Positions 1,016-63,918 of a stretch of 64,000 nt of DNA are shown here, piece by piece. Within the stretch, counting starts at the first letter, position 1; each line of letters opens with the position of its first letter. A program made the position numbers and the translations under genes. The stretch comes from Marinilabilia rubra (GTDB lineage: Bacteria > Bacteroidota > Bacteroidia > Bacteroidales > Marinilabiliaceae): the NCBI RefSeq assembly GCF_003121985.1, contig NZ_QEWP01000002.1, positions 248,001-312,000 on the forward strand, written 5' to 3'. Under the pieces are notes generated by a model. It had not been told where the DNA came from and did no database searches. It saw nothing but the letters and a program-made list of their open reading frames with translations.

Positions 1016-1144
1016 CAATAGATCGTTAGACTTTTAGATTTAAGAGATATCGTAAAATGCTGACAATGGGCATTTTAACACAATCAATCCTAGATTTTCA
1101 AATAACTGATTAAAAGCATATTGCAAAAGATCAACGGAGTATTG
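1016..1144 (+). repeat. MITE family A, copy 1 (6-bp target duplication)
   Basis: A 129-bp element beginning CAATAGATCGTTAGAC and ending AACGGAGTATTG, so its two ends are imperfect inverted repeats (CAATAgaTCGTTA against CAATActCCGTTG-type). It is flanked on both sides by TTAATG, a perfect 6-bp target-site duplication. Four further copies lie at 22999, 37505, 49125 and 63783. It carries no coding sequence and sits between kdsA and the M48 gene. Confidence 0.85.
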
Positions 1145-1162
1145 TTAATGTATTCCACAAAA

Positions 1163-8069: not shown

Positions 8070-9002
8070 TTAAAAATATCTGATTGAACGCATTCCCGGT
8101 CTTTTATTGAATGAAAAATCAAATTGAAGACTTATTTCATGCGTTCCATAATTATTGAATTGATTTAGTTCACTTATTGGATAATCAAATGAATACCTAA
8201 CAGTAAACTGATCGTTGATAATGTATTCACCTAAAAACACTACATCAGAAATGGTTCTGTAAGATAATCCCACCCATAATTGATCCATAAACATAACATT
8301 TCCGGATATGTCAAACTGCAAAGGGGCTCCATAAACCTGTCTCATCAATAAGGTTGGTTTAATTCGGATATCTTCCAATTCAAATACATATCCACCATAC
8401 AGGTACATATGCATATTTTTAGGATCGAGGTTGTTTTTAAATGTTTCGGAATCTCCATCAAACTGATCACTAAAAAATTTAGGGATAGAAAACCCTGCAA
8501 AGTAAGTATCTGAGAAAAAATAAGCACCAAATCCTACGTTAAAAGCGATTTTAGATTCCTTACTGTCAAAAACAGGATCGGACGGATCGTTAGTCTGAGC
8601 CTGAGTTCCGTCATAAACCAGTGAACTGGCGCCTAATTGAAGTCCAAAGGAAAGGAACCTTGAATCACGATCTAACTGCAGCTTATAGGAGGCAGCAGCA
8701 AATGCGTCTAAAGTGTTGCTTAATCCAATATGATCATTCACTATGGATAAACCAACACCCAGGTTCGTATCTTCTATAGGTCCATGAACATTTAATGCCT
8801 GGTTCATAGGTGCCCCATCGACTCCAAGCCATTGGTTGCGATGTATCAATAAACCACTAATGATATCGCGGGTGCCATTGTAAGCTGGATTTAAAAGTCC
8901 CTGATTGGCGATATAATGGTTAAATTGATACTGGTTCTGGGCCTTCAACGAAAGCCCAAGCCCAATAAACAAAATAAGTAAAATAAGTTGTCTTTTCTTC
9001 AT
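8070..9002 (-). CDS. PorP/SprF family type IX secretion membrane protein
   Basis: A 310-residue outer-membrane beta-barrel protein of the PorP/SprF family. Members sit next to large cargo proteins with type-B C-terminal domains and help export or anchor them at the cell surface; SprF does this for the gliding adhesin SprB. The signal peptide ends near residue 21 (LSLKAQ). The mature start QYQFNHYIANQGLLNPAYNGTRD is the typical family opening (asparagine- and glycine-rich, 'NPAYAG'-like). The rest is alternating beta strands ending in Phe (SFNKRPGMRSIRYF). Positioned 36 bp downstream of the giant adhesin gene and 30 bp upstream of the PorE-like gene, so co-transcription is very likely. Confidence 0.93.
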   Translation of the reverse strand: MKKRQLILLILFIGLGLSLKAQNQYQFNHYIANQGLLNPAYNGTRDIISGLLIHRNQWLGVDGAPMNQALNVHGPIEDTNLGVGLSIVNDHIGLSNTLDAFAAASYKLQLDRDSRFLSFGLQLGASSLVYDGTQAQTNDPSDPVFDSKESKIAFNVGFGAYFFSDTYFAGFSIPKFFSDQFDGDSETFKNNLDPKNMHMYLYGGYVFELEDIRIKPTLLMRQVYGAPLQFDISGNVMFMDQLWVGLSYRTISDVVFLGEYIINDQFTVRYSFDYPISELNQFNNYGTHEISLQFDFSFNKRPGMRSIRYF

Positions 9003-9038: not shown

Positions 9039-12000
9039 TTATCTTCGTAATTCTATATAACCATTGAACTTCTTATTGACAATTTTGCCATCAACATTGG
9101 CAGTTATGGTATAAACATAGAAATAAACACCATTTGGTAAATCTTCTCCTATGGAAACCATAGAACTCATGTTGCTTGTACCATCCCAATCGTTGGCATA
9201 ATTCTTTCCGTCTGAGCGATAGACGATGGTTCCCCAACGATTGTAAACTTCAAGAGATGACTCCTCGGTAATAGAATTATTACTTTTTATTTCGAAATAC
9301 TCATTTTTGGTATCACCATTTGGGGAGAAAGCATTTGGAATAAAAATGGATTTGTCCTCTGAGAGGTCACTATTACCGACATAAACATAAATGAATGCGG
9401 TATCGACTCTTTCAGGATAATTAGTATTCCTTACTACATACTCAACTCCATAAGATCCATAGAATGAAGGCGCTTTATCGAAAGTGACAAGCCCTGTATG
9501 CCGATTAATGGTGAAATCACCAATAAATACTTCACTAAATACAGAATCAGGATCTTCACTTTTAGCAAAGAAATACTCTAAATACCCTTCATCAAATGAA
9601 GGATATTCAGCCTGGACAGTAATTGTATCCCTATTTTCTCCTTCCTTAAGATAAAGATGAACATCTTTGGCATCAATACTATCTTCAAGAATAGTTAAGG
9701 CATCATCTGTAACTTTTACAGATGGGCAGTCAGAGGAATAAATTCCATAAGTAAAATAGCTATCACCTCTCTGATCAATGGCGACCTCCCCATCTAAACC
9801 TACATTATAAACAGGTGAATCAGGAGAATCTTGTTTAACCACATATGTAAAATTATTATCTAATACAGCTAAATCCAGATCTAATGTAATATCGCCGCCA
9901 ACCATATACTTAGTATTAATTTCAATAGGACCAATGAGATCATCCCAAGTGACAGAATATGGCAAAATATGAGACTCAACAACTACAGTATCACTATAAT
10001 CTGAGAAACAACCATTAGAGAGATCCTCGCTCCTAATGAGATATTGACCTTCGGAAACCTCTTCAAATACCGGATTTGAAGCACCTCCATAAACAGGGGA
10101 TAATTCTGTAAGTTCATTCAAAGAATCGTGGGCATACAAATGGTAAATAATAGAATTACCACCAGGTCCTTGAACATTGATATCTACTTTTTTAAAGTCA
10201 TGACAATACCGAAATGTATCAGCAAGTAGTGTTGGTGCAGCAATCGGATCAGCAATCTCTATGGTGATTTTATTTGATGTTTCTTTCTCGCAACCACTAA
10301 CAGAGACAAAATACTCTCCTGAATCATTAATGGTCCATAGAAGAGAATCACCATTCTGAGTCAATTCGGCATCTTCCTCTGTTTGGTATAAAACATCATT
10401 TCCTAAATCATCACGAGTAATAATAGAATAATCCCATCCTCCAAAATCTTCACTTATATCATATCTAATATAACCTCCTTCTGTGGCACAAACATAAGAT
10501 TTATAATCAAATTCATTTACCAGTGGAATACTACCTTCTTCAATCCATATTGTATCAGATTGACTCATACAGGCACCATTTCTGGATGCAGAAATTGTAT
10601 ATTCCCCAGTTTCAACAATGCGAAATGGTGATTCTAAGCTGCCCGAATTAGCAAGAGACTCATCCAATTGTTCATTATTTGAATCAAAAAGATGGTAGGT
10701 AACTCCATCTCCTGGAGATTCAAGTAAAACTTCATGGTAAGCTTCACCACAGAGTGAGACCGTATCTTCATCTGCAATTACCGGGATATTGGGGCCACTG
10801 GCACTATAACTTACCTTAATGGTATCTTTCATGCTGGAAGTACAACCAGTATGCATATTTCTGGCGAAAACAGTATATACACCGCTATCAACCTCATTGA
10901 ATAAGATAGTATCTCCACTGAACTTACCTTCTCTTACATCAATCAAGCCCTCATTTTCTTTAATCAAATTATATTCAACTTCAAATTCAGAACCAGTTAA
11001 ACCGATAGAGGCGCCTTGACTGGAACCACAATATGTAGCATCTCCACTAAGCTCAAATGCTTTGGGTAATGGATTAAATACTATCCGAATACTATCCAAA
11101 ACTTTTAAACAGCCACTACCATCGTTAGCTTCAAGGTAGAAATAGCTATCAGTTGAAACCTCAGGAGAGAAATCAATAGGATTACCTGAACCATCAGATT
11201 GTGTTATACTATCGTAAAGTTCTCCAGACGAAGCATACCTTAATGCATAATTCACACCTGCTTCACTTGAACTAGTACTAATAGTTACAGCACTGTCACC
11301 CTGACAAATATTTGAGTCAACCGGGGTTAAACCAACATTGGCCATAGAACCAACAGTTATAATGCCAGTTAAATCATCATCATCAATCCGGACGTTACAA
11401 CCGGCCAGACTTTCGGCCATTACAAAGTAATCTCCATTATTATCCTGAATAGAATCGGGGAAACTTATATTTGGAAGTCCAGGACTTTCAACAGTAACAC
11501 TACTACTTGGAGAACTATTGCTCTCTCTATATAAGAAATAAGAAATATCCTCTTCAGGAGCTTGGATGGTAATTACTGCTTTTTCAGTTCCACAAACATC
11601 ACCGGTAACTGAAACTATATCAACGATTATATCAAGACTTCCATCCGGAGCAGTCAAATCATCAACAATTATGGTATCTTCAAATGCGGGTCTGATACAA
11701 CCCGTTACAGTATTCACAGCTGAAATTGTGTATGACGAGCTATCGCTAACGGTAAAGTGCAACGCACCTCCATCACCATTTTGGGGGCTACCATAATCCG
11801 CATCAGGATCTGCCCCGACATCAATTAACTGATATTCAACGCCGGACTGTGTACTTTCGATAATTAATTCAACACTTCCTCCTTCACAAAATAAAGTATC
11901 ACCTAAAATAGGACGATTTTCAGGAAGCGGAGTTGTGCTAATAGTAACGGTGTCACTAGGATCAGATGTACAACCAAGATCGTTGGTTTCCGCAATTACA

Positions 12001-15000
12001 TAATATTCACCAGTGCTTGTAAAATACTCAGTGCCGTCAGCATCGTTAAGGAAATTAACATCACTGCCAGATGCATCACCAACATGGGTTGCAACAACGG
12101 AACCTTCATGCATTAAGTAATAGGTGTGATCTTCCTCCTGACCGGAGAGTTGTAAATTAACACCAATACCACCAATACAATATGTTTCAGGTAGTGCAGT
12201 AAGAACACCTGAAGAGGGCTTATCAACCATCTCAACATCAACTACTCCATTCATAGGATAAATGCACCCGCTGGAAGTATTAACCTGAACACTGAATTGC
12301 CCCTCATCACTATAATTTCCAAAGCTAATAGCATTTCCATCACCGGTGATTGTATCGACAGGAGTACCATCAAGGATTAATTCATAGTCGAGACCTGTTT
12401 CTGAACCAGATAATATCAACTCCACGCCATCAGCATCACCATCACAATACAAACCATTATCCTCACCTGTGAGGTCAAAGATTGTAACTGCTTCTCCTTC
12501 AATAGTAAAAGCACCAATGACATCGGTAGTACAACCGAACGAGGACTGAGCAATAATAGTGTATTCTCCAACGAGAGAATAAGAATTATCAAAAGTAAAA
12601 GCACTTGTTACTCCACTTCCGCTCTTGACTTCCAAAACCTGGGTACCATTAAGAAGCAAGGTATAATCAACGGATTGCCATCCATCATGTAATCCGATAG
12701 AATAACCTGAACCAGAGTTACAATCTGAAACTGTGATTCCGGATTCAGCAGAACCACCATCAACTGACATAATATATTGATTGGGAAGAGGATGTTCTGT
12801 TATATCAAAAGAATCACTTAATTGATCACCATCAGGTGTAAGAGTTGCCCAAAAGGCTTTAACCCTAAAAGTTGTTGGAGTACTAACTCCTCCATTATCA
12901 TCAAGAACATCACTCCATGAAACAGAATTGGAACCATCATAAACAATTTGTGAATATCCGGCAACAGGAGTACCATCATCATAAACCAATTCATAGGTAA
13001 CGTCTTGCTGTGGATTAGTCACTTCTACTGTTGCTCCGGTTGAACCTTCACAATATTCTCCATCGGTTACCTGAACAATTGGTTGATCTACAGAATCAAA
13101 TACATTCATTATTACAGTCGAACTGTTCTCACATTGAACGGTTCCGTGATCTTCAGTCACAATTACGGTAACTTCGTCTCCGTCTTGTAATGTAGCATCC
13201 TGATAAACATAATCAACTCCGGGAGCTTGAACTGTAGAACCATTAACCTGAAACTCGTAGGATGTATAACCGGCGACAGCAGTAAATGTGACATTAGTTC
13301 CTTCAATAAAGAAAGCGGGATCAACATCAAGGGTAGCATCAGGGAGTTGGTGAATGACAACACTCAACGATTGAGCAGCACTTGAACATCCATTACCGTT
13401 ATCATCAATAGCAACTACCTCATAAAGTCCGTCATTATTTCCATTGTTTCCAATAAAGGAATAATTCTGAGTTGAAACACCAGGAATGACCGTTCCTTCA
13501 TAATACCAAACATACTCATAGCCAGAAGCATCGCTTCCGCTAATTACACCATCATCTCCCTGAGCAGAAAGTGTAACCTGGGTTCCATCACAATATTCAT
13601 TGCTACTTCCATCACTGGAAATGCTAACTGTTGGAGCAGGATTAACTGTAAGATAAACAGTATCTTTAACACTTACACAATTATTGGCATCTGTAACTGT
13701 TACAACATACTCCCCTTCAAAACTATTATCCACCGCACTAATGGAATAAACGGTTTCATCCTGTCCACTTAAGACAGAGGTTCCTTCAAATTCCCACTCT
13801 ACATTATATGGAGAGGCACCCCCGGAAATATTTGCAGTAAGATCATAATTCGGTGTTCCTTCACAAACAGAAATATCATTTCCCAAATCAACAATTGGCA
13901 AGTCATTAACAACTACGTCCGTTGTTGCCGAATTTTGGCAAGTATTACCATCCGTCACAACAAGAGTATAAGTACCTGCCTGACTTAAGGTTACTCCTGT
14001 AAGATCATGATCCATGTCAGTGGAAATCGGTAAATCAACAGAAGGATCATCTCCCGGGGCAAACCATTCGTAGCTCAATCCCGCATCGCCACCCTGAAGT
14101 GTAATTGTCTGTCCTTCACAAGAAGGTCCTGAATTGACAGCGGAAGCGTTAGGTAAACTGTGCACAACAATGGTTTCAGGATTAGAATCAGCAGTACATC
14201 CGGCTCCTGAACTAGCAGTTACATAAACTTCATCATTGTTTACAAATGAATTGGATGTATAAATATTACCAGCCCCATTCTGGACTTCAATGCCATTAAC
14301 ATAGAAAATGTAATTGCTGTACCCATTGGTGGCTTCAACAGAAAGATCACTGTTTTCGCAAACTTCATTAGTTCCTCCCGGGAACGAAAGATTAACAGTC
14401 GGGTTATCATTAACTGTCATTGTTACAGGTGCACTTGTGTTTTCACAACCATATTGATCAATTACCCTTACTGAAACTTCATCGCCATCAGCCAAGGTGC
14501 TGGTTACATATGTATTGTCTCCGGAAGGTGCAGCGATTGATGTACCATTAAGGAAGAATTCAAACTGATCTCCACCACCTGCAGTAAAAGTTACTTCATT
14601 TCCAATACAAATGGTGGTGGCAGAAGCAGATAAGGATGGAACAACTTCAGAAACAAAAATATCTACATATGCTGTATCTGAACAATTATTCCCATCAGTT
14701 ACTACAACTCCAATTTCCATACTTCCGGTACCGGGGGCATTTTGAGTAAATGTTGGATCATTTGTTGCCGCTCCCGCAGAAATCCCATCAACAAGAAATT
14801 CATAAGTATCTCCCCCGGAAGCAGTAAAGGATACCAATTCATTGGGACAGGCAGTGTCATCAGTTTGATCGCTATTAATTGCTGCAGTAGGTAATGGATC
14901 AAAATTAATGGTTTGATTTCCTGAAGTTCCGGAACACCCTGCCCCACTTTCAGCGACAACATACACTACAGAACCATCGCTTAATGCATCTGTAGTAAAG

Positions 15001-18000
15001 ATATTATTATTGCTATTCTGAACTTCTGAACCATTTACGTAATAAACATAATTAACAAACCCTGCTGTCGCTGTAAACTCAACAGTCTGCCCTATGCAAG
15101 GAGTATCGCCATTAGGAGAAGTAACAGAAAGGGCAACTACAGGATTTGAATTAACTGTCATTGTTATTGGAGCGGAAACGGCCTCACAACCATAAGTATC
15201 TACTACACGCGCAGTTACTTCATCCCCATCAGCAAGAGAAGAAGAAGTCCAGGTATCATTATTAGACAAAGCTTGTTGAACAGTTCCATTTAACAAGAAT
15301 TCATATTGAGATCCTCCTCCGGCAGTAAATGTAACAGAGGTTCCATCACAAATGGTACTGGCAGTAGCTGTCAAAGTAGGCGTAACCTCATGAACATTTA
15401 CCTGAACCTGGGCCATTGCAGAACAGGAGACACCATCTGTAACCGTAACGCTATAAACTCCCTGATCAGCAGTTGCAACAGGATCAATAACAAGTGAAGA
15501 ACCTGTTTGAGTAGTTCCATTGGGAAGTTCCCATACGTAACTATTAGAACCTGCTCCACCTGTTACATTTGCAGTAAGCGTTAAATTACTACCAACACAA
15601 ACATCCAAATCAGGGTCACCACTATTTATTTGAACAGTTGGATTTTCATTAACTGTAAGGGTCATATTGTCAGTAGTACTGACACAACCGTTATCATCTT
15701 CTACCGTGACATTATATGTTGCTCCATTATTGGTAAGTGCAACATCCGATCCGGTAAGAATCAATTGATTATTATTTTCACCCGAAATCACGCCACCGGC
15801 ATCCGACCAAATAAAGTTAACATAATTGCCGCTTCCACCTGCAGGTACAGCAGTAAGAGTTGCATCACTCCCTTCACAAGTGGCAACATCATCAACACTA
15901 ACCGTTGGAAGTTCGTTAACAATAACAAGGACATTACTAATTGTGGAACAACCTGTAATATTATCCAGAACAGTAACTTCATAGGTGCCAGCATCATTCA
16001 AATCAGCAGGATCAATGTCAAAAGTATTGGAAGTAAAAGGTAATCCTGAAGAAGCTCCCCCCCCATCAGGAGTAAATATCCAGCTGTAATTAAAATCACC
16101 TGATCCGCCGGAAGCATTTGCTGTAACAGTAAAGTTACCACCATCACAAACAGGCGCAACGGGGTCAATCGTAACAACAGGGTTCTCAAATACCTCAACA
16201 TCAACCGTTGCAGAATTTGTACATCCCGTTGATGTACTTTGAGTGGTAAGGGTATATGTGTAAACACCAGGAGTACCGGTCGTTGCATCATCGGAAACAG
16301 TAACATCCTGACCAGAAACTGCGCCAGTCAAACCAGGTCCCGACCAGGAGTAAGTATAATCAGGATTATCAGGGCCACCCTCCAACAAAAGATCATTGTC
16401 AGGTGAAGCACAAATATCATTTCCGGAAGGACTGACAGAGGGTAATGGATCAATGGTCAGTATCATTGCATCGGAAGCACTGGCACAACCATTACCATCA
16501 TTAACTACAACAGAATAAGTTGCCGCATCTGTATTATCAACAGATGTCAATGAATATGTATCTAAACCTATTCCGGAAGCAACCTGCACAGGACCTCCCC
16601 CATCATCTTTATACCAGGAGAAAGTATAAGGTCCTGTTGTCGTTGAACTGATTGTAGCCATAAGCGTTACATCACTATTTTCACAAGCAACTAAGTCGGG
16701 ACCAATACCAACAACTGGAATTTCGTTTACAATAACTTCGGTGGTAGTAATATTTTCACAAGAATTTCCATCAGTTACTCTCAATGTGTAAATTCCACTA
16801 TCATCAGGAAAAACATTGTTAAGTGTTAAATCCTGGGTACTTCCCAATAGATTATCATCGGGATCAAACCATTGATAAGAAACAAGTCCATCCGGATCAC
16901 CAACAAGGTCAATACTATTATTTCCATTTCCACACACAGGTCCTGTATTGGTGGCACTTGGAGATGGCAATGAATTAACAACTACTTCAGTATCGTCAGT
17001 CACAATACATCCATTATCATCGGTAACGGTAAGAGTGTAGATTCCCGCACGGGCAATAGTTGCCGGACCAAAAGAAGGATCTTCATCAACGGATGAAAAA
17101 CCATCAGGACCGCTCCAATTGAAGGAATAACTGCCTGATGTGGAAATGTCTCCTCCTGAAACTGAAGAGCTGAGCTGTATTGGATCATCGTCAATACAGT
17201 AAGGACCACCATTGCCAATGGCATCTATAACAGGAAGATCATTAACAATCATCGTTAAAGGGGAAGATTCAGCCTGGCATCCATTGGCATCTTCAACAAG
17301 CACTTTAACCAGGTCTCCGTTATTTAAGGTAACTGGTCCATATGTATCATCGGCCGAAAGCGCCTGAACTTCGACATATCCTGAACCATCGTCTACTGAG
17401 AATGCATAGTTTACACCACCTGTTGCAGTAAATTCAACTGGCGTACCCTGACAAACTTCAGTTCCGGGATTTGCAGAAATACCTGGTGTTACTGTATTCA
17501 CTGTCAAATCCAGTTGAACCTGATCAGTACACCCAGTGGCATCATAAGTAATGTTTAATGTATAGGTACCGGAGTGTGTGGCATCGTTAACATTATTAAT
17601 TGTAAAGGAATCTCCGGATTCACTTCCGTAAGGAGTGGTCCATGAAATAGTATAATCTGCAGGGAAAGCACCCGGTCCGCTTAATAAATTAGCATCAAAA
17701 GAAATATCATCACCGGCACATGCTTCGGTGGGACCAACAATTTCAACCTCTGGTTTCTCGTTTACAGTCAACTGAACACTATCCGTAGAAGAACAATTAT
17801 TAGAAGTGGAAGTATCAATTACTTCTAACGAAACAGTGTGATTACCGACAGCAGGGAGGCTTGCACCAGTTATGGTCAAACTTGAAGAAGTCTCCCCGGC
17901 AATAGGGTTTCCGTCTAAATACCACTGATAACTATATGAACCGGAGCCTGTAACGTTGGTTGAAAAGGAGACATCTTCCGCCTGGCAGACAGTTTGGTCA

Positions 18001-19307
18001 CCTTCAGGAATTGCAACAACAGGATTTTCGTGAATTATAAGTGTAGTAGACCCGGAAGAGGAAGCAGCACATCCTGTAATGTTATCAGTAACATCAACAA
18101 TGTATTCAATATCATCAACACCATAAGTTACGGCAGCTAAAACAGGATTTTCATCAGTGGATGAAAAGCCTGCAGGATTGGAAGTCCAGCTAAAGGAATA
18201 GTCACCACTGCCTCCACTTGGGTTTGCATACAAACCGACATTTGTTGCCCCGTCACAAACGGGACCATCATTGGTAGGAACAACTGTTGGCCTCTGTAAA
18301 ACAGTAACTGTAACAGTCGAAGTACTGGAACAACCTGTAGGTTTACTGGAATCAACAATTGTAAGGTCATAATCATAATCCCCGGCAGTACCAATGACCG
18401 AGGGGTCCGTAATGGTAATGCTGTGTCCTGTTTCACCTGCAGGATCAAGGCCTGGTCCGGACCAGGTATAAATATAATCGGCAGATTCAGGATTTCCATC
18501 CTCTAATTCAATGCTAATATTCTGACAAACAGGGTCATTAGTAGAAATTGGACTGGGGGATGGAACAGAATTAACGGATAAGGAAGGTGTTCCTGACATT
18601 TGTGTTTCGCAATCTACGTCATCATCATCCACATGTGCAACGACGTAGTAGGAATAATTACCTTCTGGTAAAGATGATTGAATAAAATTTATTGGATTTC
18701 CATTACCATTCCTGCCTACCGTATTTTGCAGAACACCATCTCTGTATAAATAATATAGATAACCAGACTCAGAGCCATCAAGTGTTAAAGTAGCTGTTTC
18801 ACCTAAACAAATTTCAGAATTGTCTATCGTTAAATTAAAATCAGTCGGATCCTTTCGAACAATGGTATAATCAAAATCGCCACCAAAAGTACCAAGACCT
18901 CTGCTAAAGCTGTATTCAATAACAAGAAACGTATTAAATAATCCCTCCGACGAAATTTGGGCAATGTCTAATTCAATACCATTATTGGGAGAGGATCCAA
19001 CGGGGTTTAAAAGATCATTTCGATAAACTTTGCTGCCTCCGCCGTCATAATAATACAAATCCCAAACGACAGAATTATAATCCCCAGGATCAGGCAAATT
19101 ACCGGGATTAACATAAATCTCCGGAGATGAAGATGACTCACAATAAGCATCGGCTAAATCATTTATTTTTCCTTCCTGTCCTCTTAAAACAGGGGGTAAA
19201 TCATTCTTCTTGCCACCACTTTCACGCCCCTGCCCATAGGCACTTCCATCAGAAAATGCTATCAACAAAGAAAAAATAAAAATAAAATACGGTAAACCTT
19301 TTCTCAT
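9039..19307 (-). CDS. Giant secreted Ig/PKD-like repeat adhesin with T9SS type-B sorting domain
   Basis: A 3422-residue surface protein. A signal peptide covers residues 1-26 (ending SAYGQ). Most of the rest is tandem Ig/PKD-like beta-sandwich modules of about 80-90 residues, several dozen by length. Their recurring pattern is a paired cysteine, a 'YxWxxPDG' core, 'AGTYTLVVTDxNGC' and a linking 'VNxLP'. The last hundred residues form the gliding-associated (CHU_C) sorting domain: IPNAFSPNGDTKNEYFEI, EVYNRWGTIVYRSDG, NDWDG and GVYFYVYTI, expected to direct export by the type IX system together with the PorP/SprF neighbour. No enzyme domain is visible, so adhesion or gliding is inference from architecture. 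A G8 run lies near the middle, and a promoter precedes the ATG by about 60 bp. Confidence 0.93.
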   Translation of the reverse strand: MRKGLPYFIFIFSLLIAFSDGSAYGQGRESGGKKNDLPPVLRGQEGKINDLADAYCESSSSPEIYVNPGNLPDPGDYNSVVWDLYYYDGGGSKVYRNDLLNPVGSSPNNGIELDIAQISSEGLFNTFLVIEYSFSRGLGTFGGDFDYTIVRKDPTDFNLTIDNSEICLGETATLTLDGSESGYLYYLYRDGVLQNTVGRNGNGNPINFIQSSLPEGNYSYYVVAHVDDDDVDCETQMSGTPSLSVNSVPSPSPISTNDPVCQNISIELEDGNPESADYIYTWSGPGLDPAGETGHSITITDPSVIGTAGDYDYDLTIVDSSKPTGCSSTSTVTVTVLQRPTVVPTNDGPVCDGATNVGLYANPSGGSGDYSFSWTSNPAGFSSTDENPVLAAVTYGVDDIEYIVDVTDNITGCAASSSGSTTLIIHENPVVAIPEGDQTVCQAEDVSFSTNVTGSGSYSYQWYLDGNPIAGETSSSLTITGASLPAVGNHTVSLEVIDTSTSNNCSSTDSVQLTVNEKPEVEIVGPTEACAGDDISFDANLLSGPGAFPADYTISWTTPYGSESGDSFTINNVNDATHSGTYTLNITYDATGCTDQVQLDLTVNTVTPGISANPGTEVCQGTPVEFTATGGVNYAFSVDDGSGYVEVQALSADDTYGPVTLNNGDLVKVLVEDANGCQAESSPLTMIVNDLPVIDAIGNGGPYCIDDDPIQLSSSVSGGDISTSGSYSFNWSGPDGFSSVDEDPSFGPATIARAGIYTLTVTDDNGCIVTDDTEVVVNSLPSPSATNTGPVCGNGNNSIDLVGDPDGLVSYQWFDPDDNLLGSTQDLTLNNVFPDDSGIYTLRVTDGNSCENITTTEVIVNEIPVVGIGPDLVACENSDVTLMATISSTTTGPYTFSWYKDDGGGPVQVASGIGLDTYSLTSVDNTDAATYSVVVNDGNGCASASDAMILTIDPLPSVSPSGNDICASPDNDLLLEGGPDNPDYTYSWSGPGLTGAVSGQDVTVSDDATTGTPGVYTYTLTTQSTSTGCTNSATVDVEVFENPVVTIDPVAPVCDGGNFTVTANASGGSGDFNYSWIFTPDGGGASSGLPFTSNTFDIDPADLNDAGTYEVTVLDNITGCSTISNVLVIVNELPTVSVDDVATCEGSDATLTAVPAGGSGNYVNFIWSDAGGVISGENNNQLILTGSDVALTNNGATYNVTVEDDNGCVSTTDNMTLTVNENPTVQINSGDPDLDVCVGSNLTLTANVTGGAGSNSYVWELPNGTTQTGSSLVIDPVATADQGVYSVTVTDGVSCSAMAQVQVNVHEVTPTLTATASTICDGTSVTFTAGGGSQYEFLLNGTVQQALSNNDTWTSSSLADGDEVTARVVDTYGCEAVSAPITMTVNSNPVVALSVTSPNGDTPCIGQTVEFTATAGFVNYVYYVNGSEVQNSNNNIFTTDALSDGSVVYVVAESGAGCSGTSGNQTINFDPLPTAAINSDQTDDTACPNELVSFTASGGDTYEFLVDGISAGAATNDPTFTQNAPGTGSMEIGVVVTDGNNCSDTAYVDIFVSEVVPSLSASATTICIGNEVTFTAGGGDQFEFFLNGTSIAAPSGDNTYVTSTLADGDEVSVRVIDQYGCENTSAPVTMTVNDNPTVNLSFPGGTNEVCENSDLSVEATNGYSNYIFYVNGIEVQNGAGNIYTSNSFVNNDEVYVTASSGAGCTADSNPETIVVHSLPNASAVNSGPSCEGQTITLQGGDAGLSYEWFAPGDDPSVDLPISTDMDHDLTGVTLSQAGTYTLVVTDGNTCQNSATTDVVVNDLPIVDLGNDISVCEGTPNYDLTANISGGASPYNVEWEFEGTSVLSGQDETVYSISAVDNSFEGEYVVTVTDANNCVSVKDTVYLTVNPAPTVSISSDGSSNEYCDGTQVTLSAQGDDGVISGSDASGYEYVWYYEGTVIPGVSTQNYSFIGNNGNNDGLYEVVAIDDNGNGCSSAAQSLSVVIHQLPDATLDVDPAFFIEGTNVTFTAVAGYTSYEFQVNGSTVQAPGVDYVYQDATLQDGDEVTVIVTEDHGTVQCENSSTVIMNVFDSVDQPIVQVTDGEYCEGSTGATVEVTNPQQDVTYELVYDDGTPVAGYSQIVYDGSNSVSWSDVLDDNGGVSTPTTFRVKAFWATLTPDGDQLSDSFDITEHPLPNQYIMSVDGGSAESGITVSDCNSGSGYSIGLHDGWQSVDYTLLLNGTQVLEVKSGSGVTSAFTFDNSYSLVGEYTIIAQSSFGCTTDVIGAFTIEGEAVTIFDLTGEDNGLYCDGDADGVELILSGSETGLDYELILDGTPVDTITGDGNAISFGNYSDEGQFSVQVNTSSGCIYPMNGVVDVEMVDKPSSGVLTALPETYCIGGIGVNLQLSGQEEDHTYYLMHEGSVVATHVGDASGSDVNFLNDADGTEYFTSTGEYYVIAETNDLGCTSDPSDTVTISTTPLPENRPILGDTLFCEGGSVELIIESTQSGVEYQLIDVGADPDADYGSPQNGDGGALHFTVSDSSSYTISAVNTVTGCIRPAFEDTIIVDDLTAPDGSLDIIVDIVSVTGDVCGTEKAVITIQAPEEDISYFLYRESNSSPSSSVTVESPGLPNISFPDSIQDNNGDYFVMAESLAGCNVRIDDDDLTGIITVGSMANVGLTPVDSNICQGDSAVTISTSSSEAGVNYALRYASSGELYDSITQSDGSGNPIDFSPEVSTDSYFYLEANDGSGCLKVLDSIRIVFNPLPKAFELSGDATYCGSSQGASIGLTGSEFEVEYNLIKENEGLIDVREGKFSGDTILFNEVDSGVYTVFARNMHTGCTSSMKDTIKVSYSASGPNIPVIADEDTVSLCGEAYHEVLLESPGDGVTYHLFDSNNEQLDESLANSGSLESPFRIVETGEYTISASRNGACMSQSDTIWIEEGSIPLVNEFDYKSYVCATEGGYIRYDISEDFGGWDYSIITRDDLGNDVLYQTEEDAELTQNGDSLLWTINDSGEYFVSVSGCEKETSNKITIEIADPIAAPTLLADTFRYCHDFKKVDINVQGPGGNSIIYHLYAHDSLNELTELSPVYGGASNPVFEEVSEGQYLIRSEDLSNGCFSDYSDTVVVESHILPYSVTWDDLIGPIEINTKYMVGGDITLDLDLAVLDNNFTYVVKQDSPDSPVYNVGLDGEVAIDQRGDSYFTYGIYSSDCPSVKVTDDALTILEDSIDAKDVHLYLKEGENRDTITVQAEYPSFDEGYLEYFFAKSEDPDSVFSEVFIGDFTINRHTGLVTFDKAPSFYGSYGVEYVVRNTNYPERVDTAFIYVYVGNSDLSEDKSIFIPNAFSPNGDTKNEYFEIKSNNSITEESSLEVYNRWGTIVYRSDGKNYANDWDGTSNMSSMVSIGEDLPNGVYFYVYTITANVDGKIVNKKFNGYIELRR
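16057..16064 (-). repeat. Poly-G8 tract inside the giant adhesin gene
   Basis: Eight G in the coding strand encode the FTPDGGGASSG segment of one Ig-like module about a third of the way into the protein. A slip of one base would truncate the protein before its sorting domain, preventing export. Confidence 0.9.
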
Positions 19308-22946: not shown

Positions 22947-22998
22947 AAATGAAAACTTTTTTCTTTCCGGATCTTTAAAAACATCAATTACTCTTCCT

Positions 22999-23134
22999 CA
23001 ATACTCCGTTAGGCTTTTGTAAAAAGCTATAAATCAAATTTTTTGAATTATACCCATCATTATTTTTAAGCTCTGGTTATCGGCACCATATGGTTCGGCT
23101 TAAATCTAATGTCTAAAAATCTAACGATCTATTG
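22999..23134 (-). repeat. MITE family A, copy 2 (6-bp target duplication)
   Basis: Reverse-oriented 136-bp copy: CAATACTCCGTTAGG at the left and TAACGATCTATTG at the right. CTTCCT stands directly on both sides, a perfect 6-bp target-site duplication. It lies in the gap between the divergent Smr and queA genes. Confidence 0.85.
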
Positions 23135-23279
23135 CTTCCTGCAAAGGTAAAAAATATAAAGAGACATTTCAGATTTTGAATTTAACGGAAAGATAAGGTT
23201 CATAATACAATCAAATACCCCCATTGCATTTAGCAAAATCCTCCCCAGAAGTGAACCTCAATATTCTTTATTTTTTGAT

Positions 23280-37388: not shown

Positions 37389-37473
37389 GACTTTTTGCAA
37401 TAACCAAAACAAGCAAAAGGCAACCTGTTTTCGTTATTCCGGAGTTAAATAGGGGTTGCCAAAAAGTCAAAAA

Positions 37474-37494
37474 TATATGCGTTTTTCAGCGCTC
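37474..37494 (+). repeat. 21-bp hairpin-bearing repeat (family D), copy 1
   Basis: TATATGCGTTTTTCAGCGCTC differs at one base from 63939-63959. It has a small inverted repeat GCGyT-TTTC-AGCGC. Both copies stand next to a MITE family A copy. Confidence 0.6.
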
Positions 37495-37504
37495 AATAAA
37501 TAAA

Positions 37505-37659
37505 TATAGATCGTTAGATTTTTAGATACCTGCCTGACGGCAGTCAGGTTAGATGTAAGATAATTCGTATCATGCTGACTTTCGGCACATCAATACAAAA
37601 GAAAGTGTTCTTACAATCAATTAATACCGAATCTATTGTAAAATTTTAACGGAGTATTG
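37505..37659 (+). repeat. MITE family A, copy 3 (degraded left end)
   Basis: TAGATCGTTAGATTTTTAGAT at the left and TTTTAACGGAGTATTG at the right. The outer left bases are altered, and no clean target duplication remains. An extra self-complementary segment (CTGCCTGACGGCAGTCAGG) is present near the left end. The rest of the 37660-38040 interval contains no gene that I can support. Confidence 0.75.
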
Positions 37660-38044
37660 AATAAGATAACTCAAAAAAAACGTCCTCATGCAGTGATAAT
37701 CTGGCCGAAGGTTCCGGAAAGTTATCGCATCAGACTTTAAATTTAAACCATTCCTGAAGACAGCAGAATTGAAGGTGGTATTTGGAGTGTAAAAGTAATC
37801 AATAGTATTCTCTTTTATTTGCTCGGGCTTCCGATGAACAGGTACAGGCTGCGCCGGCCTTTACTTTTTTTGTTCATGATTTTGCATACTTAAATAAGTA
37901 ATCACGATTTCCGCTTCGCTCCAATTCTTCAGCAAAAAAAAGGAAATAAAAAATGCCATCGCTTATAGAATTTCAAAACGAGATCGTCTTGATGCGAAAT
38001 GCAAGCCCAGAAAAACACTCTACTTCTGAAACGTTACAAAAAAG

Positions 38045-42106: not shown

Positions 42107-43462
42107 ATGGGTAAAAGTACAAAAAAGACAAGAAGTAAAAAGCAAAATTTGAACGAGTTTAACATCGTTAACCCAAATGCCGCAGGTATTGATGTTTCAA
42201 GCAAAGATTATGTAGTAAGCGTTCCGGCAGATCGGGACAAAAAGCACATAAGAACATTTGGTGCATTTACCTGTGATTTGAAAATTATAGCCAATTGGCT
42301 TATTGAATGTGGGATAGACACAGTTGCAATGGAAAGTACCGGGGTGTATTGGAAGCAACTATTTGTAGTATTGCAAGAGCATGGTATTGAAGTCTTTTTG
42401 GTCAATTCCAGACATGTAAAGAATGTTACAGGCAAGAAGACAGATGAAGAGGATGCACATTGGATTATGCGATTGCATACCTGTGGTCTTTTAGTAAATA
42501 GTTTTCAGCCGGAAGAGGAAGTGCGAACACTAAGAGAAATTTTGCGGCAGCGGAAAAGTATAAATGATAATAAAAGCATTGCCGTAAACAAAATGGTCAA
42601 AGCTCTTAATAGCATGAATATTAAACTTAACATGGTTCTTAGTGATTTAACATCAGTCAGTGGACAAAAGATTATCAGTGCTATTAATTCCGGAGAGCGT
42701 TGTCCTGATGAGTTGATAAAATTAGTGCATTATAAAGTAAAAACTCCCAGAGAGGATATTTTAAAAGCATTGGAAGGTGTTTGGCGGGAAGAGTGCCTTT
42801 TTGAGTTAAAACTGGCTCAGGAGTATTATCAATTCCTTCAAAAACAAATGTCAGAATGTGACGAAAAAATAGAAGAGCAGCTGCTTCTAATTGCCGCCAA
42901 ATATAATGATGGCGATATCTCTGAACTTAAAAAAAAGGCAGCAAAAAAACATACCCGAAAGAATGATTTCAGCTTTAGTGTCAGGCCATACTTAAAAGGA
43001 ATACTTGGCATTGATGTTTGTGAAATATATGGTTTTAGTGATGAAACATCTTTGACTTTATTTGCAGAAACAGGAAGCAATCTTGATAGTTTTTCAACAG
43101 CAAACAGGTTTGCTTCTTGGGTGGGGCTTGCTCCAAATAATAAAATATCGGGAGGTAAAGTGATAAGTAGTCATCTACCGCGTAAAAAACATGCTATAAA
43201 AAGAGTCCTTATCCAGTCAGCAAATAGTCTTTACCGCAGTGATAATGCCTTGGGGGATTGTTATCGAAGGTTGAAGTCCAGAATCGGAGCAAAAGCAGCA
43301 AAATGTGCTATGGCCAGAAAATTAGCGATTATATATTACCATATGGTTACCAAAAAAGAGGCTTTTAATGTTGAGTTATTTGAGCAACATCAAGCCTCCT
43401 TTAAGGAAAAACGAATTAAATTTCTTGAAAAGCAACTATCTGAAATGAAGAAAGTTGCTTAG
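42107..43462 (+). CDS. IS110-family transposase
   Basis: A 451-residue recombinase with the two parts of the family. The N-terminal RuvC-like DEDD domain has Asp29 (GIDVSSKDYVV), Glu76 (AMESTGVYW), and Asp113 and Asp116 (KKTDEEDAHW). A helical coiled region follows. The C-terminal transposase_20 domain near 330-420 includes FASWVGLAPNNKISGGKVIS, where the catalytic serine is expected, and KKHAIKRVLIQSANSLYR. The frame is full-length and uninterrupted, so the element may still be active. It starts at an ATG directly after the structured leader. Confidence 0.95.
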   Translation: MGKSTKKTRSKKQNLNEFNIVNPNAAGIDVSSKDYVVSVPADRDKKHIRTFGAFTCDLKIIANWLIECGIDTVAMESTGVYWKQLFVVLQEHGIEVFLVNSRHVKNVTGKKTDEEDAHWIMRLHTCGLLVNSFQPEEEVRTLREILRQRKSINDNKSIAVNKMVKALNSMNIKLNMVLSDLTSVSGQKIISAINSGERCPDELIKLVHYKVKTPREDILKALEGVWREECLFELKLAQEYYQFLQKQMSECDEKIEEQLLLIAAKYNDGDISELKKKAAKKHTRKNDFSFSVRPYLKGILGIDVCEIYGFSDETSLTLFAETGSNLDSFSTANRFASWVGLAPNNKISGGKVISSHLPRKKHAIKRVLIQSANSLYRSDNALGDCYRRLKSRIGAKAAKCAMARKLAIIYYHMVTKKEAFNVELFEQHQASFKEKRIKFLEKQLSEMKKVA

Positions 43463-46247: not shown

Positions 46248-48638
46248 TCATTTTGAGATATAACATCTTAACTTGACATAAAACGAGCGTCCGGGCTTTT
46301 GCAGACGAAAATGATCGTATAATTTGCCATCCAAGAGGTTTCTAACTTCAAAGGCCACATTGTACTTCCCGTCATGTAGTGAATAGGTCATTTCTGCGTT
46401 GTGTGAAATCTGCCGTGGAATCACATATTTCCTCTCCGGGTCGCCCTGGCTGGGCCATTTCAGAAAATATTCCTCTACGAACCGGGAGTTCAGTTGCCCG
46501 CTTATGCGATCGTGGTCGCATAAAACGCTGAAAAATTCGGCCCCAAGCGCCAGATTCCCGAAAAGGTAAGGGATATTAGGAATCCGGTCGAGATATACAT
46601 TGCTTTTCCGCTGTCCTTCAAATTCTGTGTTATTGAGGATATTCTGGAAGGTACCGTTAATGCTGATAAAATAATTTCGCATCCAGGTATAGCGAATTTG
46701 AGCTTCCACTCCTGAACTCAGCACATCGCGTTGATTGACATACCGGCTGGTGGCTCCTTCAGCCTGGTTGCGGATGAAATCTTTGGCATCACGATAAAAC
46801 AGGTTTGCTTCGGTTTCAAGCAGGTGAATCCCCTCACGATAGCTCCAATTGATACCAAAGTTGGCATTTAAACTTTTTTCAGGTTCAAGGGCAGGATTGC
46901 TCAACAAGTTTAAACCGTCGCCAAACATCTCGTACCCTTCGGGCAACCTGTATGCTTTCTCCACGGATGTCTTCAACTGTGCGGTTTCACTGAAAAACCA
47001 GGTGACCGCCGCACCATAACCGGTATTATTGTAATCAGAGGAATAATTGGTCCGTTCCCCACTCCAATCCACATCAATCATATGAGAATGAAAATCATAG
47101 AATTTGGCAAACAGTGTAGTGCGGAGTTTTTCGTTAAAAAACTTACCGGTATATGACAGACCGTAAATTGATTTATTCAGTTTGTTGGGCTGACTAAAGG
47201 CAGTTTCGTATCTGCTTATCGGATCGCTTCCTTTGCGGTTAACTAATGAAAGTGTATAATTAAAGTCGATGTGTTGAGTGGTTTTAAACTGATACCGTAT
47301 ACCGGCATTCCCGATAAGCGTTTTGTCGTTGAACCGGAACAGTGTTTTCTGCCAGCTTGCCTCGCCAATATTTTCATCATTGTTTAACTGATATTCCCCT
47401 CTCCAGTTGTACCTGCGCGAACTGGTATCCGCTACCAAAAACTGACCGTCGGTGTATGACAGGTAGCTTTTTACATCCAGTCCATCTATAAAAAGGTCAT
47501 CTTTTTTATACTTCAAAAAAGGCGACAGCACTTCATCTTCCCGAAAAACCTCCCCATATGGCCGGTCCATACTCACACCATGCTGAATTTCGTTGTGATT
47601 GTCCGACAAGGTTGCCCCAACCAAAAACAGGTCAGTCCAGTTTCTTTGCCGGAAACCGCCCTCCACCTGGATCATTCGCGATTCGTATGCATCGTGAAAG
47701 CGAGGCAAATCCTGAGGTTCACCATAAGTTCCGGACTCAGGATCAACCACCTGTACCTCAACTTTGTAATCATTATCCGAATAGTTGTAAAAGCCTCTGG
47801 CATTAAAGGTCAATCCGTTGCTTTGGTTGTAATAATTGGCATTAAGAGCAACTCGGTGAGTATTAAATGACCCGAAGGAATAAGAGGCATCAATGAAATT
47901 TCTGATCGATTCTTTGGTAATGATATTCACGGCTCCGCCCAGAGCATCTGAGCCCAGATGAACCGGAACGACCCCCTTATACACTTCGGCACGGTCAATA
48001 AGATTAACGGGAATGTTATTAAATGTTAGTGATGTTCCGGCACTAACCAGTGGAATACCATCAACAAAGAATTTTACCTGATTGCCTGACAAGCCATTTA
48101 TGGCAAAATCAAATCCCGAGCCAAGTCCGCCTTCCTCGCGAACAATGAGCCCGGTAGTTTTACTCAGCACAAGATTCAAATCCTGGTTACTGTTGTGCAG
48201 TGATTCTACATTCACAGAATTGATGGCATAGGCCATTTCTTTTGCTTGTCTCACCTTGCTTTTACCAGCCACAACCACCTCTTGTAAATCGACTGAAGAC
48301 TCCTGTAAAACAATTTTAACTTCAGATGTTTTGCCTTCTATAACATCCACAATAACTTCATTGTCTTTGTAGCCGAGGTTTTTAATTTGCAGAATGTGTT
48401 TTCCCGGCTGGACATCATCAATAACAAAACGACCATCAACACCTGTGGCGGAACCATTTAATGACTCCGCTATAACTACCGAGACAAAAGGTAATGGCTG
48501 ATTTTGTGTATCGGTAACAATTCCCTCAATACCGGCTCCGGAATTTTGAGCCTGAGTACCCGCAACTAATAATCCGAACAACAAGGCTGCAAACAACTTT
48601 TTCATGCAACCAATCCATGCACTTTTCATTTCCTGCAT
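46248..48638 (-). CDS. xusA: TonB-dependent outer-membrane receptor, XusA-like
   Basis: A receptor of about 796 residues. After the signal peptide (KKLFAALLFGLLVAGTQAQ) come a carboxypeptidase-regulatory-like domain (GIEGIVTDTQNQPLPFVSVV), a plug (YAINSVNVESLHNSNQDLNL; VKFFVDGIPL; HLGSDALGGAVNII) and a 22-strand-type barrel ending in an aromatic residue motif (RSFYVKLRCYISK). It should import an iron chelate using TonB energy. The frame opens at 48770, but a strong promoter at 48668-48699 would start transcription near 48661, inside that extension. The ATG at 48638, preceded by AGGAAG, or that at 48605 is therefore right. First gene of the iron operon. Confidence 0.92.
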   Translation of the reverse strand: MQEMKSAWIGCMKKLFAALLFGLLVAGTQAQNSGAGIEGIVTDTQNQPLPFVSVVIAESLNGSATGVDGRFVIDDVQPGKHILQIKNLGYKDNEVIVDVIEGKTSEVKIVLQESSVDLQEVVVAGKSKVRQAKEMAYAINSVNVESLHNSNQDLNLVLSKTTGLIVREEGGLGSGFDFAINGLSGNQVKFFVDGIPLVSAGTSLTFNNIPVNLIDRAEVYKGVVPVHLGSDALGGAVNIITKESIRNFIDASYSFGSFNTHRVALNANYYNQSNGLTFNARGFYNYSDNDYKVEVQVVDPESGTYGEPQDLPRFHDAYESRMIQVEGGFRQRNWTDLFLVGATLSDNHNEIQHGVSMDRPYGEVFREDEVLSPFLKYKKDDLFIDGLDVKSYLSYTDGQFLVADTSSRRYNWRGEYQLNNDENIGEASWQKTLFRFNDKTLIGNAGIRYQFKTTQHIDFNYTLSLVNRKGSDPISRYETAFSQPNKLNKSIYGLSYTGKFFNEKLRTTLFAKFYDFHSHMIDVDWSGERTNYSSDYNNTGYGAAVTWFFSETAQLKTSVEKAYRLPEGYEMFGDGLNLLSNPALEPEKSLNANFGINWSYREGIHLLETEANLFYRDAKDFIRNQAEGATSRYVNQRDVLSSGVEAQIRYTWMRNYFISINGTFQNILNNTEFEGQRKSNVYLDRIPNIPYLFGNLALGAEFFSVLCDHDRISGQLNSRFVEEYFLKWPSQGDPERKYVIPRQISHNAEMTYSLHDGKYNVAFEVRNLLDGKLYDHFRLQKPGRSFYVKLRCYISK

Positions 48639-48667
48639 CAAACTTCCTTTTCTGAAATTGAACTGTG

Positions 48668-48699
48668 CAAACTTAAACTGAATAAAAACAGGCAACAAT
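48668..48699 (-). promoter_or_regulatory. Promoter of the xusABC-like operon
   Basis: On the minus strand ATTG (48696-48699), a 20-nt spacer and TAAGTTTG (48668-48675) fit the Bacteroidota form. No obvious Fur box was recognised beside it. Confidence 0.6.
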
Positions 48700-49030
48700 C
48701 CCCAAAAATTGGGGTTTAATTTTATCGCAAAACAGCCTTCAACAGAAAGCGAAATGCATTTTATCCACAATAAAAGTCACTAAAAAACTGACCATTAAAC
48801 TTGCTCACATACTACTGGAAAGTGACAACGAAATAGCTGGCAACAACTCATTTTAATAGCCATATTTTATTACTTGATGTTTCGGATTTAATTGCGGAGG
48901 GCGCCAAATAGATATTCCCACCCTCACTTTTTCGAAACAAGAGAAAGAATAGGATACACTGTGAAGAGATGCTTTGAAGGTTTCGTATAAATCTTAATTA
49001 CAGCCAAAAGCAGTTTATCCGACACCCCTC

Positions 49031-49074
49031 TGCCTGGCGAAGTTTCTTTCCTCGCAAAGAAACTTCGCCAGGCA
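49031..49074. repeat. Perfect 19-bp inverted repeat
   Basis: TGCCTGGCGAAGTTTCTTT and its exact reverse complement flank a 6-nt spacer. It lies in the 730-bp gap between the divergent receptor and MACPF genes. It has no T-run, and both neighbours point away, so it is not a terminator. The remainder of the gap holds the MITE copy at 49125 and nothing else seen. Confidence 0.7.
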
Positions 49075-49124
49075 TAAATATTTACCCAACAGAAAACGAC
49101 TAATTATTTATTAAAATAAAATAC

Positions 49125-49261
49125 CAACACTCCGTTAAACTCTTATAAAAGCTTAAATATCAAGCTCTTGAGAGCAAATGAGTTTTTTATCTTAAAGCCC
49201 GGATTATCAGTGTTATATGAGTTATCTTAAATCTTATATCTAAAAGTCTACCGATCTATTG
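49125..49261 (-). repeat. MITE family A, copy 4
   Basis: Reverse-oriented 137-bp copy, starting CAACACTCCGTTAAA and ending CTACCGATCTATTG. Along its whole length it closely matches the copy at 63783-63918. Flanking hexamers (AATACC, AAATGC) differ, so the target duplication has decayed or was never formed. Confidence 0.8.
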
Positions 49262-49368
49262 AAATGCAAAATCAGTTCATAATTCTTTTTCAAAAAGTCA
49301 AAAGGCATGCAACTAAAAGAAAAGTAAACCTTGATATAAAATAATTCAAATTTCAAAACCGAAAAACT

Positions 49369-51258
49369 ATGGTAAGAATTACAAGTCTATTGACATTACT
49401 GTTAATCTTATTAGGGAATAATTCCTTAGCCCAGGACCTGGCACCCGGAACAGACATTGTCGGATATGGATATGACATTTTTGGCGAATATGCCAATCAA
49501 AAGAGCAAGAAACGTTACTGTTTGTTCGAATATACCAACAACGAAGAAAAAGTAATAACAAGCAAAACATATCTTGTACCTAAGAATGTCATAGTTGAAA
49601 ACATATCCGAACACATTGTCAAAACCGTTTCCGGAGAAAGCATGCGCGAATATGCCCAAAGCCTTTCGGCCAAAGCCGGTCTGTCTGTCGACGCTTTTGC
49701 ATTCAGCGGATCTGTTGAGTCGAGCTTTAACAAGTCCGGCTCAGGTATGAAAAAACATTATTACCATACATACATGGATGCCAACACCAAGTGGCGTATT
49801 TCACTGGACATTAGAGGCGATTATGTTGATCCACTAAAAGAAATGCTGGAGCCCCGATTTGCCAATGATTTGAAAAACATGCCCGCGAAAACCCTTTTCG
49901 AAACTTACGGCACCCATTATATTGCTTCAGCTTATTTAGGCGGACGAGCTGACTTTAAAACAAAAACAGTCATGAGCTCTAAAACAAATACAGAGGAAAT
50001 TGGCATGGCTGTAGAAGCCAAATATCACGCTGTATCAGCCAATGCTTCGCTGGATAAAAAGCATAAACAAACTCTGTCTAATTCTAAAACCAAAACCCGA
50101 TTAACGGTTGTAGGTGGAAATTCGGAATATGCCAATAACATCAACGATCCTGTCACTTATGAAAAATGGGCAAGTGGCATTGCTGAAGCACCTGTTCTTT
50201 GTGATTTTGAAGAAGGAAGTTTACGCCCAATATGGGAACTTGCCGAAACAGAAGCAAGAAAAAATGAATTAAAAGCCGCTTTTAATAAATTGCTGCAGGA
50301 TTACCCTTTACCAGCAAAAATGGCCAATGTTGTTTCCCTAAAAGATGATGCCTACATGGTAAAAAACAAAGCCTGCGGCTTATTTTGGGATTTTGACGGC
50401 TCTAACCTGAATGCCAAAAAGTATTCGAAGTTAAAACTGAATAGAAAAGATTCCAGGTATGAAGACAAGCAGGGTTTTGATAGAATAATAAAATTAATTC
50501 CTAATGAAGAAAACCCTGAATTTGTCCGGATTCAGCCTCAGCATTACCCCACTTTCCTGCACCTGTCAAAAACTCAGGATTATATAAATCTGCATGCAGG
50601 TAATGAAATAAATCCGGGAAAAGATTTTAAACTTGAGCCCGTTGATGATGAAGATGGGTACTATTATATTAAAATTCGAAAAACAGACCAGTATCTTACA
50701 GCACCCGGAGGAACGGACACACAGGAAGATGCAGTAATTTCTCTAAACGATTTTACAGGGGAAGAAAACCAGAAATGGAAACTGGAAGAATTCGACCCCA
50801 AAAACATTGCATTCCCGGAAACAGCTTTTTATGCCGTCAAATCATTTGCAGCCGATAAATATTGGGATTTTCCCGGAAAATTTCCTGACATCAGTGGAAA
50901 TAAACTCCGATCCTATACCATGGGTAAACAGGAGGGAGACAGGGTTTACAAATTTGCGCGCCTTTCAGAAAGTGATGAATTTTTGATTCGTCCCGGTCAT
51001 GAAAGCAGCCGTGTACTTACTGCCAGAAAAGTTGGAGAACAATTGTTTGCATTCGACCAAAAGCGATCAGACAATCAGCTGTTTACCTTTGAATATGCCG
51101 GAAAACCAAGAGCATACAAAATCCGACACAAAGGAACCGGAAAATACATTCACCTAAGAAGCGACCGCACCAATATGAATGGCGCCGAGATAAAAATATA
51201 CCATGGTCAAGCAAATAAAGATTACCAAATGTGGGAATTGATATTCCACAAGAAATAA
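49369..51258 (+). CDS. Secreted MACPF pore-forming-type protein with beta-trefoil (ricin-like) tail
   Basis: A 629-residue exported protein with a signal peptide ending near residue 21 (NNSLAQ). Residues about 30-310 resemble a MACPF/CDC domain. The signature YGTHY is at 180-184 (ETYGTHYIASAYLGGRADF), with amphipathic stretches on either side able to form membrane hairpins (SAKAGLSVDAFAFSGSVESS). From about 330 to 629 the chain shows two ricin-type trefoil modules with QxW-like endings (ENQKWKLEEF; DYQMWELIFH) and WDFDG/WDFPG repeats. Known MACPF proteins of gut Bacteroidales kill related bacteria; others act on eukaryotic cells. Target and sugar specificity are unknown. Monocistronic, with a hairpin terminator downstream. 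Confidence 0.85.
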   Translation: MVRITSLLTLLLILLGNNSLAQDLAPGTDIVGYGYDIFGEYANQKSKKRYCLFEYTNNEEKVITSKTYLVPKNVIVENISEHIVKTVSGESMREYAQSLSAKAGLSVDAFAFSGSVESSFNKSGSGMKKHYYHTYMDANTKWRISLDIRGDYVDPLKEMLEPRFANDLKNMPAKTLFETYGTHYIASAYLGGRADFKTKTVMSSKTNTEEIGMAVEAKYHAVSANASLDKKHKQTLSNSKTKTRLTVVGGNSEYANNINDPVTYEKWASGIAEAPVLCDFEEGSLRPIWELAETEARKNELKAAFNKLLQDYPLPAKMANVVSLKDDAYMVKNKACGLFWDFDGSNLNAKKYSKLKLNRKDSRYEDKQGFDRIIKLIPNEENPEFVRIQPQHYPTFLHLSKTQDYINLHAGNEINPGKDFKLEPVDDEDGYYYIKIRKTDQYLTAPGGTDTQEDAVISLNDFTGEENQKWKLEEFDPKNIAFPETAFYAVKSFAADKYWDFPGKFPDISGNKLRSYTMGKQEGDRVYKFARLSESDEFLIRPGHESSRVLTARKVGEQLFAFDQKRSDNQLFTFEYAGKPRAYKIRHKGTGKYIHLRSDRTNMNGAEIKIYHGQANKDYQMWELIFHKK

Positions 51259-51285
51259 TAAGTGTTTGTCTCATAACCAATTGTG

Positions 51286-51315
51286 TACCGGTCGTTTTTT
51301 TTAAAAGGGCCGGTA
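51286..51315 (+). terminator. Terminator after the MACPF gene
   Basis: TACCGGTC and GGCCGGTA form an 8-bp stem around a T/A-rich loop, followed by TTCTTTTTG, 28 bp after the stop codon. Confidence 0.5.
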
Positions 51316-63579: not shown

Positions 63580-63624
63580 TAAATAGGAGCTGATGGAAAA
63601 GTCAAAAAAGGCAGAATTTCAAAG

Positions 63625-63782: not shown

Positions 63783-63918
63783 CAATAGATCGTTAGACTT
63801 TTAGATATAAGATTTAAGATAGATCATATAACACTGATAATCTGAGCTTTAAGACATAGAGTTATTCATCCGCAAGAGCTTGAACTTTAGACTTTTATAA
63901 AAGTTTAACGGAGTATTG
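63783..63918 (+). repeat. MITE family A, copy 5 (6-bp target duplication)
   Basis: A 136-bp copy from CAATAGATCGTTAGAC to TTTAACGGAGTATTG with AAGGTT directly on both sides: a perfect 6-bp target duplication. It has long similarity with copy 4. Confidence 0.85.

Follow-up and report, generated by a model that had tools for sequence, protein, structure and literature searches.

Five copies of a short repeat lie in the window, by which we mean the whole 64-kb stretch of Marinilabilia rubra DNA that was analysed (Table 1). Direct reading and alignment bore out the initial annotation in the presence of five copies and in their ends being inverted repeats of each other. Four copies start where it had placed them; the third starts at 37504, not 37505. 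Genes neighboring the copies include those for DAHP synthase, an M48 peptidase, queuosine synthesis, an M3 peptidase, a fucosidase, a TonB receptor, a MACPF/lectin protein, and an antiporter-type subunit. The predicted protein encoded at 49369-51258 has MACPF and ricin-type lectin domains, and an ORF of 3422 aa (9039-19307) adjoins a PorP/SprF type IX secretion gene (8070-9002).

Table 1. Copies of the repeat in the window, with their target site duplications (TSD) and mapped subfeatures.
Feature	Position	Strand	Details
MITE copy 1	1016..1144	+	129 bp; locus L017; nhmmer E 1.3e-24
Copy 1 TSD	1010-1015 / 1145-1150		TTAATG, perfect; direct reading
Copy 1 left terminal inverted repeat	1016..1036	+	CAATAGATCGTTAGACTTTTA
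Copy 1 right terminal inverted repeat	1124..1144	-	reverse complement CAATACTCCGTTGATCTTTTG
MITE copy 2	22999..23134	-	136 bp; locus L018; nhmmer E 7.7e-29
Copy 2 TSD	22993-22998 / 23135-23140		CTTCCT, perfect; direct reading
MITE copy 3	37504..37659	+	156 bp; nhmmer E 3.6e-23
Copy 3 TSD	37499-37503 / 37660-37664		AATAA, 5 bp; direct reading
Palindrome nested in copy 3	37529-37548		CCTGCCTGACGGCAGTCAGG; 25 bp inside left end
MITE copy 4	49125..49261	-	137 bp; nhmmer E 7e-29
Copy 4 TSD			AAATAC / AAATGC; 5/6 matching
MITE copy 5	63783..63918	+	136 bp; locus L019; nhmmer E 8.7e-32
Copy 5 TSD	63777-63782 / 63919-63924		AAGGTT, perfect; direct reading

Ends, Copy Number, and Distribution of the Repeat

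Across the five window copies the shared ends are imperfect inverted repeats of ~20 bp (CAATAGATCGTTAGAYTTTT / CAATACTCCGTTAAACTTTT). In their alignment the left end reads CAATAGATCGTTAGAYTTTTA and the right end, as its reverse complement, CAATACTCCGTTAAACTTTTA; the two match over most of their length, the differences falling at positions 6 to 8, 14, and often 16, and copy 3 has a worn end (ATATAGATCG). At 18 of the 21 end positions, the pair seen most often is Watson-Crick or G-U; the exceptions are positions 6, 7, and 21. The palindromes CCTGCCTGACGGCAGTCAGG and TCCCGATGCTTCGGGA occur at repeated positions just inside the ends; in a 464-kb survey, 3/3 sites of the former and 5/13 of the latter lay inside a MITE, no more than 60 bp from its end.

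Ends of this kind can pair into a long stem, and a family of functional structured RNAs or terminator-like hairpins (resembling REP or NEMIS-type repeats), maintained because of its fold, might present a similar picture. Two of nine folded strands were well below their shuffles (window copies 22999, z -3.35, and 63783, z -2.94), the remaining seven having z between -1.89 and -0.08, and where left and right ends differ at positions 8, 14, and 16, one of the strands could mostly still form G-U pairs. Against this, only 5 of 246 departures at Watson-Crick stem positions in 93 own-genome copies were compensatory, compared with 48 G-U, 70 A-C, and 123 other changes. Hence, pairing is not protected and we reject a structured RNA, which we regard as highly improbable. 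Subfamilies also differ in their interiors, some of which are broken by other repeats; an Rfam scan of the window returned RNase P and a tRNA, with no window copy matched at gathering score; and an RNA would leave the target duplications described below unexplained.

That the five copies belong to a large genomic family, as the initial annotation had proposed, was supported by an estimate of ~230 copies in the 5.38-Mb genome (95% interval 142 to 358). The estimate is scaled from 20 copies or fragments in 464 kb (400 kb from contig C1 plus the window), themselves drawn from 21 nhmmer hits after a remnant against another copy (C1 31295-31391) was excluded and the hit at 163419-163456 was extended to its right end. 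All 20 surveyed copies were intergenic by simple ORF calling, by which 84 to 88% of the DNA is coding, and they occurred in all four gene arrangements. Throughout the genome, the exact end pair, with 85 to 115 bp between end patterns, was found 38 times versus 0 for the backwards pattern; the left end at ≤2 mismatches 314 times versus 4 in the control; and the right end at ≤1 mismatch 169 times versus 5.

A set of 165 copies was parsed into elements, 93 of them from the own genome by locus number. The commonest length among these 93 was 136 bp (34 copies), inside the range of ~50 to 1000 bp that defines MITEs. The copies are too short to hold a transposase gene, and those surveyed lie between called ORFs. 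Nearest-neighbor identity among the 34 own copies of 136 bp ranged from 0.69 to 0.993, near-identical copies lying at different places; thus, old and recent copies coexist.

Exact end pairs were found in 4 of 100 genomes searched, namely the own genome, two others from its genus, and one from a different genus. At ≤2 mismatches the joint end pattern clearly exceeded the control in five of six relatives, G004 being near control (53 versus 47); at ≤1 mismatch, four of the five genomes reached via named loci showed an excess, the Maribellus genome having 4 versus 1 in the control. Among the matches listed (at least 76 loci), most named carriers belong to Marinilabiliales. They comprise Anaerophaga (including A. 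thermohalophila), Marinilabilia (including M. salmonicolor), Alkalitalea, Natronoflexus, and other Marinilabiliaceae, together with a Prolixibacteraceae MAG, Maribellus, and two Salinivirgaceae MAGs. NCBI taxonomy places Anaerophaga, Alkalitalea, Natronoflexus, and Maribellus in Marinilabiliales and Salinivirgaceae in Bacteroidales. The left end had no match in viral contigs.

Target Duplications, Empty Sites, and the Target Signature

The three perfect 6-bp duplications first noted beside the window copies (TTAATG, CTTCCT, and AAGGTT) were confirmed by direct reading. The initial annotation had allowed that these might be chance matches if other copies lacked duplications and relatives held no empty sites. 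When 88 copies from the own genome and relatives were located by their ends alone, 57 carried an exact duplication of 5 to 8 bp, compared with ~1.15 expected when right flanks were shuffled among copies, and empty sites were found at four insertions, within repeats. Six base pairs was indeed the commonest length (29 copies); it is not fixed, with 21 duplications of 5 bp, 6 of 7 bp, and 1 of 8 bp. The other 31 copies, among which window copy 4 was scored, lack an exact duplication of at least 5 bp, as expected for, and not proof of, worn or recombined copies. Counts were taken from these 88 copies; those from the parsed set of 165 (93 own) are biased, its copies having been admitted partly by having a duplication. 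At one locus (L043), a 136-bp copy flanked by a 6-bp duplication interrupts the right end of another copy, 135 bp long.

To find empty sites, the two flanks of each of 143 copies were aligned to every locus collected, overlaps being recomputed with unaligned bases included. At four insertions (L116/L119 counted once), the flanks meet in uninterrupted copies of a repeat, where they overlap by exactly the length of that insertion's duplication. Window copy 5 interrupts a different repeat, and intact copies of that repeat supply the empty site: the overlap is 6 in both L044 and L215, where the single site reads AAAGTT and AAGGTT, respectively. The L116/L119 insertion (AACTAT) has an overlap of 6 in L307, L152 (TAATAT) an overlap of 6 in six rows at five places (L292 and L193 being one place), and L271 (ATCTT) an overlap of 5 in five rows at four places (L291 and L123 being one place). 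Two rows were misfits, L041 with an implied overlap of 7 and 19 bases unaligned and L304 with an implied overlap of 13. The empty sites thus lay in uninterrupted repeat copies; none was found in orthologous DNA of a sister genome, where the one locus compared (window 46300-51300 against same-genus genomes) matched only in the MITE. Two sites (L254/L293 and L116/L119) are occupied in both Anaerophaga genomes, so those insertions predate their split.

Other repeats were met beside or inside the copies. The family interrupted by copy 5, ~250 to 300 bp long, was seen at 63590-63970 of the window, at L044 3634-3875, and at L215 ~360-530; its ends in L044 (TAGGGACTGCTGAAAAAG...CGTTTTTCAGCGCTCCCTA) make it MITE-like itself, and a relic-like piece lies at ~37448-37498, beside copy 3. 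A third repeat of ~185 bp with ends AGTGTCAAGTCAAG, a motif with one match in the window, is nested in MITE copies (L033 900-1483 and a 311-bp copy in L044). Two mosaic copies (L049 1-230 and L132 1834-2290) have left ends on both sides of a trapped GC-rich, minisatellite-like stretch, which suggests recombination between copies.

A target signature was resolved from 126 insertions with duplications of 5 to 7 bp, a set admitted partly by duplication and at ≤4 mismatches per end, so that a few may be false. The target takes the form T-N3-[duplication]-N3-A, with the outer bases at a fixed distance from each junction. T stands at -4 in 86/126 insertions, versus 0.32 in nearby flanks (p 2e-16); for A at +4 the figures are 92/126 and 0.33 (p 1e-19), and 67 insertions have both. 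Offset 2 carries a weaker signal (0.49 and 0.56), and at offset 12 A reaches 0.53 on one side only. Admission by duplication does not favor particular bases outside it. The signal is present at 5-bp duplications (T in 36/54 and A in 41/54) and at 6-bp duplications (44/60 and 43/60); the 7-bp duplications are few (6/12 and 8/12). This suggests that contacts are fixed relative to the cut sites while the stagger is flexible.

Taken as a whole, the repeats are almost certainly a mobile MITE-type transposon family that duplicates its target, the reading of the initial annotation, which the excess of duplications and the empty sites support. It is well supported as a new family of a well-known kind. 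In the mechanism we propose, a transposase would join the MITE ends to an AT-rich target with a staggered cut of 5 to 7 bp, usually 5 or 6, and repair of the gaps would yield the duplication. The enzyme would be of DDE type, probably bound as a symmetric pair that touches the target outside the cut and tolerant of a variable stagger, and insertions in genes would presumably be removed by selection.

The Search for a Mobilizing Enzyme

The initial annotation placed the mobilizing enzyme outside the window, and a scan of 30 of the window's 65 ORFs ≥100 aa did not find it. The IS110-type transposase (42107-43462) was again the only one recognized in that scan, and IS110 elements are not known to make such target duplications.

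The longer relative it had called for, with the same ends around a transposase, was not found in the own or relative loci read for outward-facing ends 0.5 to 6 kb apart. Of 413 such end pairs (500 to 6000 bp), two had an exact duplication of at least 5 bp, and neither was transposon-like. For 55 of 155 left ends at ≤2 mismatches in own-genome loci, no partner lay within 700 bp, and none of the 155 had a convincing partner at transposon length. Individual candidate spans held ordinary genes, as judged by reading their ORFs, and were rejected: L111 (oxidoreductase-like and YigZ-like), L112 (enoyl-CoA hydratase-like), L113, L114 (PfkB-like), L319 (aspartokinase-like), and L239 (a hipBA-like pair, without an exact duplication). 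A 584-bp element in L033 proved to be a MITE copy with other repeats nested inside. The end pair 1776 bp apart in L132, whose left end has 2 mismatches and whose right end has 1, resembles a coincidental match.

Transposase searches with NF033559, PF01609, PF00665, PF00872, and PF13612 likewise returned nothing with the MITE ends. The IS1634 family makes duplications of 5 to 6 bp, a length that would fit if the MITE had arisen from an IS1634-type element by internal deletion, and full-length members occur in some relatives, including the same-genus genome G002. However, the own genome has no IS1634 match at E ≤ 0.001, nor one to DDE_Tnp_1; in 30 IS1634 loci, end-like matches were few, all at 2 mismatches save two at 1, and no convincing end pair surrounded the transposase. 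We therefore consider this parentage very unlikely. Derivation from IS256 was rejected on the different ends (GAGACTGTTCAAAAA) and 8-bp duplication of the own-genome IS256, and derivation from IS3/rve on the single own-genome rve match, IS3-like by reading, which has no MITE end nearby within 1 mismatch. For IS982, also rejected, PF13612 had no match in the own genome or in 6 of 8 other genomes; five IS982-type matches (in G102 and G003) were flanked by scattered end-like matches only within 2 mismatches, and one fragment (L330) is bracketed by such look-alikes at a distance of 584 bp and lacks a duplication.

The transposase could quite possibly, at a little under an even chance, be encoded in the own genome as a multicopy element collapsed into small contigs or lying in the unread part. 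Multicopy IS elements would tend to collapse in this way, 11 small contigs of the assembly read wholly as N, and 155 left ends were examined for partners versus 314 counted in the genome. Less probably, the enzyme is of a type outside current IS lists, one that contacts the target four bases outside the cuts with a stagger floating between 5 and 7 bp. It might be encoded by a stand-alone gene outside any IS, which, if true, would explain why no carrier locus read holds a full-length element with these ends.

Comparison with Known MITEs

A keyword search of the open-licence literature, at the level of listings, did not find the family as already described. It adds a large MITE family for Marinilabiliales, whose clean target signature could serve to recognize its transposase, and ~230 copies without a visible parent make it a testable question how MITEs outlive or outrun their parents.

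Within Bacteroidota, MITECca01 from a Cardinium endosymbiont (PMC9769881) is described as an element that, like ours, is short, lacks a transposase gene, and has inverted repeats, with 169 copies found mostly in intergenic regions or inside other mobile elements. Its parent IS982 element resides in the same genome, unlike in Marinilabilia rubra, which has no IS982-type match. By description rather than alignment, high-copy prokaryotic MITEs such as ERIC, Correia, and Chunjie (PMC10969869) are alike in numbering from tens to hundreds, in varying in size and sequence, in including truncated copies, and in lying between genes, in other hosts. The Porphyromonas gingivalis MITEs and BrickBuilt elements (PMC4596501), also from Bacteroidota, share intergenic placement, inverted repeats, and trapped internal repeats. 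They differ in having duplications of uneven length. Their ends resemble those of named IS elements of that species (GAGACCTT...) and, in the end sequences given there, bear no resemblance to CAATA...TATTG, and they number ~10 to 20 copies (19 for BrickBuilt) versus ~230 here.
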